From: Flavobacteriales bacterium
Lineage (GTDB): Bacteria > Bacteroidota > Bacteroidia > Flavobacteriales_D > Sanyastnellaceae
Direction of reading: 5' to 3'
Assembly: GCA_002862785.1 (NCBI GenBank)
Contig: PKDZ01000087.1
Location: 1-45,556 of the forward strand
DNA length: 45,556 bases
This document shows, piece after piece, positions 10 to 1,072 of this stretch; position 1 is the stretch's first letter, and every line of letters begins with the position of its first letter. A model generated the notes under the pieces. It was not told the origin of the DNA. It searched no databases and worked only from the letters and a program-made list of their open reading frames with translations. The translations under genes were made by a program, and so were the position numbers.

Positions 10-25
10 ATGACTTTGCAATTTT
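10..25 (+). repeat. 16-bp near-repeat, copy 1 (upstream of regulator)
   Basis: This 16-mer matches positions 482-497 at 14 of 16 bases (ATGACTTT, two differing bases, then AATTTT). One copy lies just upstream of the GbsR/MarR-like gene and the other just upstream of the ferritin gene. It may be a second regulatory element or a trace of promoter duplication. The sequence alone does not show which. Confidence 0.45.
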
Positions 26-41
26 CAATATTTACTGAAAT
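22..41. promoter_or_regulatory. Candidate operator, copy 1 (TTTTCA-N8-TGAAAT)
   Basis: An imperfect inverted repeat with 6-bp arms (5 of 6 pairing) and an 8-bp spacer ends 9 bases before the GTG start of the regulator gene. A closely similar element with perfect arms lies immediately before the ferritin gene (554-573). A two-fold symmetric site with this spacing suits a dimeric winged-helix repressor. Inference: the regulator encoded between the two sites binds both, controlling itself and ferritin. Only proximity and similarity support this. Confidence 0.5.
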
Positions 42-50
42 ATTTGTCCC

Positions 51-485
51 GTGGATCCATCCGGGCTCGAAGAATTCTCTGCGGCAGCCAACTTCTTCCT
101 CGAAGAATGGCCGGCGATTCTCAAGCCCTGGGGGTTCACCCGCACGGCCGGATTGATCCACGGCACCCTCCTCATTCACTCAACTCCCTTGACTGCGGAC
201 GAGATTCTCGCCTCCACCGGTGCCAGCCGTGGCGGGGTCAGCACCCAGCTGAACACCCTCCACCAGGCCGGACTCATCGAGCGGATGCGCCTCCTCGGAG
301 AAAGACAGGAGCGGTTCAGCCCAATCCGGGACGGACGCCTGATTCGGGCCGCCCTCCTGGCCCACTTCGAACAAAACACCCTGAGGCCCATGAAGCTCCT
401 CGAACACACCCTCACAGCCATTGCCGGGAAAGAAGACCTGTCGTGGTTGGGCGCCCTGCATGACTTGGGTCAAAACGACACATGA
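51..485 (+). CDS. GbsR/MarR-like winged-helix transcriptional regulator
   Basis: A protein of 144 residues starting at GTG; no in-frame ATG gives a complete N-terminus. The first ~45 residues are helical (FFLEEWPAILKPWGFTRTAG), followed by a winged helix-turn-helix at about residues 48-80. The recognition segment reads ASRGGVSTQLNTLHQAGLIE, and a basic wing (RMRLLGERQERF) comes next. This order matches the GbsR branch of the MarR superfamily, which are dimeric DNA-binding proteins responding to small molecules. The C-terminal third is a short helical dimerisation segment. The ligand cannot be inferred. Both this gene and the ferritin gene downstream are preceded by a similar inverted repeat, so autoregulation plus control of ferritin is a reasonable inference. 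The flanking non-coding DNA is AT-rich compared with the rest of the window. Confidence 0.8.
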   Translation: MDPSGLEEFSAAANFFLEEWPAILKPWGFTRTAGLIHGTLLIHSTPLTADEILASTGASRGGVSTQLNTLHQAGLIERMRLLGERQERFSPIRDGRLIRAALLAHFEQNTLRPMKLLEHTLTAIAGKEDLSWLGALHDLGQNDT

Positions 486-497
486 CTTTCGAATTTT
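482..497 (+). repeat. 16-bp near-repeat, copy 2 (upstream of ferritin)
   Basis: Second copy of the element at 10-25, overlapping the stop codon of the regulator gene (TGA at 483-485). Fourteen of sixteen positions agree. It opens the AT-rich 89-base gap before the ferritin gene. Confidence 0.4.
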
Positions 498-553
498 AAT
501 TGGTATAAAGCACATAATATCAATTAATTAAATACACTTCATTCTCCCATTTA

Positions 554-573
554 ATTTCATTTATTTCTGAAAT
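554..573. promoter_or_regulatory. Candidate operator, copy 2 (ATTTCA-N8-TGAAAT)
   Basis: A perfect inverted repeat with 6-bp arms and an 8-bp spacer ends one base before the ferritin ATG. It occupies the place where a ribosome-binding site would be, so a bound protein would block transcription elongation or initiation, and the RNA could also fold across the start. It agrees with the site at 22-41 at 15 of 20 positions. Confidence 0.5.
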
Positions 574-574
574 C

Positions 575-1072
575 ATGATTGACACACAGATTGAACAGGC
601 CCTGAATGACCAGATTGCCATGGAGGCGCGCTCCTCCCATTTCTATCTCGGCATGGCCACCTGGGCAGAGACCAGCGGATTGAACGGCACCGCCGCCTTC
701 CTCTACCGACACAGCCACGAGGAGCGGGAGCACATGCTCAAGCTCATTCGGTTCGTCAATGAGCGTGGCGGAACCGCCCACATCCCCTCGTTGGATGCTC
801 CCGCAGCGGAATTCAGCGGACTGCACGCAGTCTTCACCACGCTGCTCGAGCATGAAACCAACGTGACCGCCAGCATCAATGAAGTCGTGGACCTCTGCTT
901 GTCCAGGAAGGACTACACCACCCACAACTTCATGCAGTGGTACGTTTCCGAGCAGATTGAGGAAGAAGCCCTCGCCCGGACCATCCTCGACAAACTCGCC
1001 ATGATCGGTTCCGACAGCGCGGGTCTCTATCTCTTCGACAGGGATCTGGAACAACTCGAACCGGAGGCCTGA
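575..1072 (+). CDS. ftnA: Ferritin (FtnA-type iron-storage protein)
   Basis: A 165-residue bacterial non-haem ferritin. Ferritins assemble into 24-subunit shells in the cytoplasm, oxidise Fe(II) at a di-iron ferroxidase centre and store the ferric mineral. Visible family features are the opening helix with LNDQIAMEARSSHFYLGMA, the metal-ligand segment HSHEEREHMLK in helix B, GGTAHIPSLDAP between helices, and the EQIEEEALARTILDKL stretch supplying further glutamates. Length is normal. The start is ATG with no Shine-Dalgarno sequence; an inverted repeat abuts it. It follows the GbsR/MarR-like gene by 89 AT-rich bases, suggesting local control instead of, or beside, a Fur-type regulator. Confidence 0.96.
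   Translation: MIDTQIEQALNDQIAMEARSSHFYLGMATWAETSGLNGTAAFLYRHSHEEREHMLKLIRFVNERGGTAHIPSLDAPAAEFSGLHAVFTTLLEHETNVTASINEVVDLCLSRKDYTTHNFMQWYVSEQIEEEALARTILDKLAMIGSDSAGLYLFDRDLEQLEPEA

Follow-up and report, generated by a model that had tools for sequence, protein, structure and literature searches.

Regulator and ferritin genes and their shared inverted repeat

The window, i.e., the whole stretch of DNA analyzed, comprises 45,556 bases and is an entire contig (G000:C17) of a 2.44 Mb genome that is 98.5% complete; as the contig starts at base 1, DNA 5' of this position is absent. Among named relatives, Flavobacteriales MAGs are the nearest, and some of them are labelled Crocinitomicaceae; a plasmid search returned 15 distant matches, none of them covering 80% of the query. 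Close to the start of the window lies the gene of a GbsR/MarR-like regulator, followed by that of a non-heme ferritin (Table 1). The ferritin domain was recognized in the latter, and its score with the PRK10304 equivalog model is below the cut-off. Two further ferritin-family genes are carried by the source genome, on contigs C63 and C5, and TTCA-N8-TGAA was absent from the stretches read near them. One Fur homologue was also found in this genome.

Table 1. Features at the regulator–ferritin locus, in window coordinates.
Feature	Position	Strand	Remarks
16-mer, copy 1	10..25		Unconserved as a paired element; overlaps the -33 candidate
Operator 1, TTTTCAATATTTACTGAAAT	22..41		Core TTTCA-N8-TGAAA at 23-40; before the regulator gene; kept in relatives
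Putative -7 element, AATATTTG	39..46	+	5/6 to TAnnTTTG; overlaps the 3' end of operator 1
GbsR/MarR-like winged-helix regulator	51..485	+	144 aa, GTG start; MarR_2 match, profile match, predicted fold
16-mer, copy 2	482..497		Overlaps the regulator stop codon; unconserved; rejected
Operator 2, ATTTCATTTATTTCTGAAAT	554..573		Core at 555-572; directly before the ferritin start; in 15/15 ferritins of the genus that have the regulator upstream
Non-heme ferritin	575..1072	+	165 aa; PF00210 131.7 bits; PRK10304 140 bits, cut-off 178

The regulator was assigned to the MarR superfamily by PF12802 (MarR_2), with 27.5 bits at a cut-off of 27, a threshold under which the regulators of some relatives fall. 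Its model (mean pLDDT 87.2) shows helices plus two strands of the wing (76-80 and 87-91). A profile from 25 relatives gave Mj223 (1ku9) as the top match (E 3.2e-22), and the same structure headed the fold search with VIA-align (Z 14.4, 133 aligned, rmsd 4.1) in a tie with 5jbr (14.3) and 4nb5 (13.9), the next one reaching 11.2, while in Foldseek 5jbr and 1ku9 were equal (E 1.3e-06). Sequence and predicted fold thus place the protein in the Mj223-like GbsR family. In the window regulator and its sub-clade the C-terminus is about 25-30 residues short compared to many relatives, inside the presumed dimerisation region, and model confidence drops to 56-73 in the last blocks of the window regulator. 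With the equivalog model of CudC, the GbsR of a choline system, the regulator scored 23.8 bits against a cut-off of 218; in the genome search this model gave 22.4, and B. subtilis, Deinobacterium and M. jannaschii were matched too. The neighbors that define the GbsR, OpuAR/OpcR/YvaV and CydE sub-groups were not encountered among the inspected relatives, and no cydAB-like frame was recognized by eye beside the regulator in the inspected loci. The neighbors observed were kbl, DAO oxidoreductase, ferritin, TIGR01777, membrane proteins and a methyltransferase, as called by eye and by a family search of nine frames, with the upstream side of the window lying off the contig. The regulator is therefore GbsR-like, yet outside every described GbsR sub-group.

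According to the initial annotation, the two genes are preceded by inverted repeats that agree at 15 of 20 positions, and both the coordinates and this count proved exact. The core of operator 2 ends 2 nt 5' of the ferritin ATG, and TTTCA-N8-TGAAA was found in just these two places of the window. The spacers are AT-rich (72% and 78% A+T). In first-order Markov sequences modelled on the two spacers, the simulated chance of a site was 0.0004 for 50 nt and 0.0011 for 89 nt, and both sites together appeared in none of 20,000 simulations. A whole-genome search for more copies, suggested along with the annotation, returned five matches to the unrestricted TTTCA-N8-TGAAA and two to the AT-centred TTTCANW6NTGAAA, a pattern picked after the sites of the locus had been seen; these two are operators 1 and 2. 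A wider regulon in the source genome was rejected, the other three matches being located inside frames on C7 and C40 and between converging 3' ends on C5. The C7 match is also present in 8/17 genus genomes, in a frame that we take to be threonyl-tRNA synthetase.

A second shared element of 16 bp had also been claimed. Its copies do agree at 14/16 positions, but at least 14/16 was reached in 1.4% of 4,000 simulated spacer pairs, the ferritin-side copy begins one base 5' of the regulator stop codon (483-485) and runs into it, and this copy is absent in the closest relative (L101). The 16-mer was thus discarded as chance-level and unconserved. On the regulator side a part of it (TTGCAA) is kept, covering a possible -33 promoter box. 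Bacteroidota promoters have a -7 element of the consensus TAnnTTTG and a -33 box; going by this general consensus, the kept part is probably the -33 promoter region, and we take TTTG at 16-19 as the candidate -33 box of the regulator gene.

Conservation of the operators alongside the regulator

Among the 17 genomes of the genus, 14 carry the regulator, amounting to 15 regulator–ferritin loci with the two copies of G087. Ferritin is the gene right after the regulator, save in G087, where the two are separated by the gene of an ABA4-like membrane protein. TTCA-N8-TGAA with at least five A/T among its eight central positions ends 2-5 nt before the start of every one of the 15 ferritins that follow a regulator in the genus, loci that are related by descent and do not represent 15 independent trials; the simulated chance is 0.0008 per sequence, and the exact TTTCA/TGAAA arms are found in 9/15. 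The motif described for a single pair is thus present in every orthologous pair of the genus, and it also lies upstream of the 14 genus regulator genes with readable upstream DNA (14/14). Regulator identity to the window drops to 32% and the spacers diverge, with the operator being retained. In the ferritin operator of G087 (L102/L103, one genome) the outer arm bases have changed symmetrically, giving ATTCA-N8-TGAAT, as expected if the site belongs to a dimer. At L013/L107 (G099:C53:430-808) the regulator is split over two frames by a mutation or an assembly error, and both operators are intact. G091 and G094, two members of the genus in which the regulator is missing, show a DAO oxidoreductase adjoining ferritin (and kbl upstream in G091) and are devoid of the site. 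Since both branch outside the 15 site-bearing ferritins in the ferritin tree, loss of regulator and site together is indistinguishable from their never having been gained, and co-loss is unproven. G085, in which ferritin is cut by the contig end, was left out of this judgement.

At the family level, the site with exact arms and any centre was found in 34 of 40 ferritin loci with the regulator, compared to 0/25 loci with none in the fetched stretch, a definition that covers G004, whose regulator and two operators sit on another contig. These 65 loci, one per genome, come from 65 of the 80 genomes of the family in which ferritin was matched. The six regulator-bearing loci without the exact site are L007, L017, L026, L027, L070 and L093; of these, L017 and L093 are truncated by the end of a contig and L007 carries the TTCA form. 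A similar picture emerged from 80 named ferritin loci, 30 of which have the regulator: a start-codon site with at least six of eight central positions A/T was present in 14/30, all genus members, and in 0/50 of those without it.

The AT-centred pattern was also scanned in 37 genomes, in which 38 of the 44 sites coincided with the regulator locus, and seven genomes lacking any regulator match contained a single such site in total. Five of the six off-locus sites are inside frames, i.e., three in one frame type, presumably sufS-like, one in a second, presumably murF-like, and one in another. The sixth (L200, G048:C2:3151267-3151284) lies just upstream of a long secreted-protein-type frame, which may be a further target in that genome. 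The any-centre pattern proved noisier: it matched 65 times in the 17 genomes of the genus, 22 times at the locus, and a reversed-pattern control gave 15 matches. Since the AT-centred sites are mostly at the regulator locus, it appears that the regulator would act mainly locally. Throughout the genus, strong support was thus obtained for the proposed local regulator of the MarR/GbsR type, with one symmetric site at its own gene and another at ferritin, and the motif follows the regulator across the 65 family loci.

Other putative clients of the module in Flavobacteriales

Outside the genus, the regulator is preceded by its own operator in 16/16 named loci, and a site at the ferritin start was found in 0/16. 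The operator was also detected at most 100 nt upstream of 20/20 regulators from four other Flavobacteriales families, with a second exact site at most 650 nt downstream in 16/20 (simulated chance 0.0017 per 100 nt); these 20 are the best-scoring among 35 non-family genomes with a match, a non-random sample that shares one locus (L226 = L123) with the named set. Their flanks of 1.5 kb, which would show a near ferritin alone, contained one in 1/20 (L226). In loci outside the genus a second operator often precedes a TIGR01777 oxidoreductase, small membrane proteins, a methyltransferase or a DoxX-like protein; one genus has it before a kbl-like gene upstream of the regulator. The start codon lies exactly 3 nt past the TGAA arm in 12 of 14 non-ferritin client rows, several of which are near-identical, a placement as tight as that at ferritin.

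Some of these loci deserve a separate description. In L148, L155, L164, L168 and L169 a perfect operator is located about 2.9 kb upstream of ferritin, its TGAA 3 nt before the kbl-like start, and about 40 nt downstream of the promoter-like TAATTTTG (TAATTTCG in L169). In L222-L241, from the other families, the second operator stands before varied genes, including TIGR01777-like frames and frames with a DCPLCR thiol motif; those starting with DCPLCR are presumably DCC-like.

In genus g18, ferritin follows the regulator by about 60-80 nt without a site of its own, which suggests that the two genes form an operon. A ferritin match was absent in seven regulator-bearing g18 drafts that are 63-91% complete (G050, G051, G052, G057, G060, G066, and G067), and the operator was retained in 4/4 inspected ferritin-less g18 genomes. 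In L181-L184 (G051, G052, G067, and G057) the kbl-like gene, the DAO oxidoreductase, the operator and the regulator are kept in the same order with ferritin missing, i.e., the regulator outlives its presumed client.

TTTCA-N8-TGAAA is therefore the predicted autoregulatory operator of this GbsR-like subfamily, with ferritin as its putative client in this genus. Given that the operator is found at regulators of other families with other clients, the most fitting view is that of a widespread autoregulator with ferritin as a client specific to this lineage. The idea of a repressor dedicated to ferritin fits this genus; it does not extend to the loci elsewhere, with their other clients, the 16 named loci free of ferritin-start sites and the seven ferritin-less relatives.

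Promoters, proposed repression and relation to known systems

In L105, L106, L108 and L110 a 6/6 match to the -7 element directly follows the operator, while in L119, L128, L135 and L143 the -7 element is found about 17 nt after it, placing the operator near the expected -33. Both arrangements fit autorepression by occlusion. In all eight loci the -7 element is just 3-5 nt from the regulator start, which suggests that the regulator mRNA is leaderless there. Upstream of the ferritin operator no promoter was recognized, the matches to TAnnTTTG being weak and inconsistent. As a clear ferritin promoter was not found, occlusion and roadblock are both possible at this site.

The arrangement expected of an autoregulated local repressor, namely the same operator at its own promoter and at a client gene, was observed at the level of sequence. 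We propose that the GbsR-like protein encoded at 51-485 would bind TTTCA-N8-TGAAA as a dimer. At 22-41 the bound protein would cover part of the putative -7 element and silence its own gene, while at 554-573, where the site occupies the final 20 bases ahead of the start codon, it would prevent transcription initiation or halt the polymerase in its first steps. A presumed inducer or a redox change would free the protein, so that regulator and ferritin would rise together. We consider it quite probable that such an autorepressing dimer also blocks ferritin transcription, and that the module works elsewhere with other clients.

It could be argued that the same protein occupies both sites and activates ferritin, as the direction of control is unreadable from a sequence and some MarR-family proteins act as activators. 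However, the positions of the sites, against the start of ferritin and on the -7 or near the -33 of the regulator gene, are suited to blocking. Moreover, the characterized members GbsR, OpcR, OpuAR and CydE are repressors, according to the accessible parts of the respective papers (PMC7396694; PMC6207618), and we regard activation as unlikely.

Alternatively, the sites may belong to Fur, PerR, OxyR or a similar regulator, with the GbsR-like gene being a mere neighbor, and a Fur homologue does exist in the genome. Ferritins are often controlled by Fur or OxyR. Nevertheless, the site is missing from all 25 family ferritin loci with no regulator in the stretch, it also occurs ahead of regulator genes that have no ferritin close by, and its TTTCA/TGAAA arms are, in our view, unlike a Fur box. 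Fur control alone would leave unexplained why the site tracks the GbsR-like gene, and this possibility appears very improbable.

Still less credit can be given to a leader RNA hairpin controlling translation of ferritin. The position directly 5' of the start and the pairing of the arms in 4/6 folded regions would agree with it, but the six regions (five ferritin, one regulator) fold no better than shuffled sequences (z +0.3 to +1.1), no Rfam match was obtained, and in several regulator genes the repeat is upstream of the putative -7 element and hence presumably untranscribed. Beyond the weak pairing of the arms nothing supports this reading, and it was rejected. Finally, a chance likeness of two AT-rich stretches, conceivable at 72% and 78% A+T and of the kind seen in the 16-mer part of the claim, is already contradicted by the 0/20,000 simulations and the 15/15 conservation at ferritin, and its probability is practically negligible.

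Repression by the GbsR-like protein is in line with what has been described for its family. In the accessible part of one study, B. subtilis GbsR is reported to repress from AT-rich inverted repeats that lie beyond the transcription start, i.e., as a roadblock, and OpcR by covering the -35, so that both modes exist in the family; expression of the GbsR and OpcR genes is affected by autoregulation (PMC7396694). A survey of the GbsR family from 2018, as far as its accessible text goes, mentions Bacteroidetes members without a consistent neighborhood or regulatory role (PMC6207618). From our results, these members would gain an operator and an autoregulatory layout, with ferritin as a concrete client in one genus, and the role and inducer of Bacteroidetes GbsR-like proteins become directly testable. 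In these marine bacteria, ferritin is probably under a local repressor whose family is known above all for the control of salt stress. In a more far-reaching scenario, which we put forward tentatively and consider rather doubtful, an old Flavobacteriales repressor module re-uses its operator before adjacent genes and has captured ferritin in this genus under a non-iron signal. If true, iron storage would respond to a non-iron cue, e.g., an osmolyte-like, redox or photo-oxidative one, and the operator would be re-used before whichever gene adjoins, often right against the start codon.

No paper on GbsR-type control of ferritin was found in the open-access literature, a body that leaves most subscription papers outside, and a MarR regulator was not found in the accessible part of a review on bacterial iron detoxification (PMC7762939), where the word occurred twice, as an author name. 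BmoR of Bacteroides fragilis is, by its description, a Bacteroidota MarR-type repressor that acts on an inverted repeat and is linked to redox balance; its repeat has the pentanucleotide TTTCC instead of TTTCA, and in the accessible text of that paper ferritin is mentioned just in a cited title (PMC6158253). Mj223, the template for GbsR modelling in the accessible part of the family survey (PMC6207618), is archaeal, and the window regulator is C-terminally shorter. The resemblance to CydE of Alishewanella, as presented in the same part, lies in a GbsR-type repressor of the adjacent operon (cydAB) with an oxygen/redox link (PMC6207618). With GbsR, OpuAR and OpcR of Bacillus, as described in the accessible parts of two papers, our regulator shares the MarR winged helix, the Mj223-like fold, an operator made of AT-rich inverted repeats in or close to the promoter, proximity to its presumed targets and a predicted autoregulation (PMC6207618; PMC7396694). 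It differs from them in that its putative client is ferritin and theirs are osmoprotectant uptake or synthesis, and in the arm spacing, which is 8 bp here and 4 bp for GbsR at gbsAB, as given in those parts. Our system is thus best filed with the known GbsR-type repressors beside osmoprotectant and cydAB genes, as a new case with its own operator type and, in ferritin, an unusual client.
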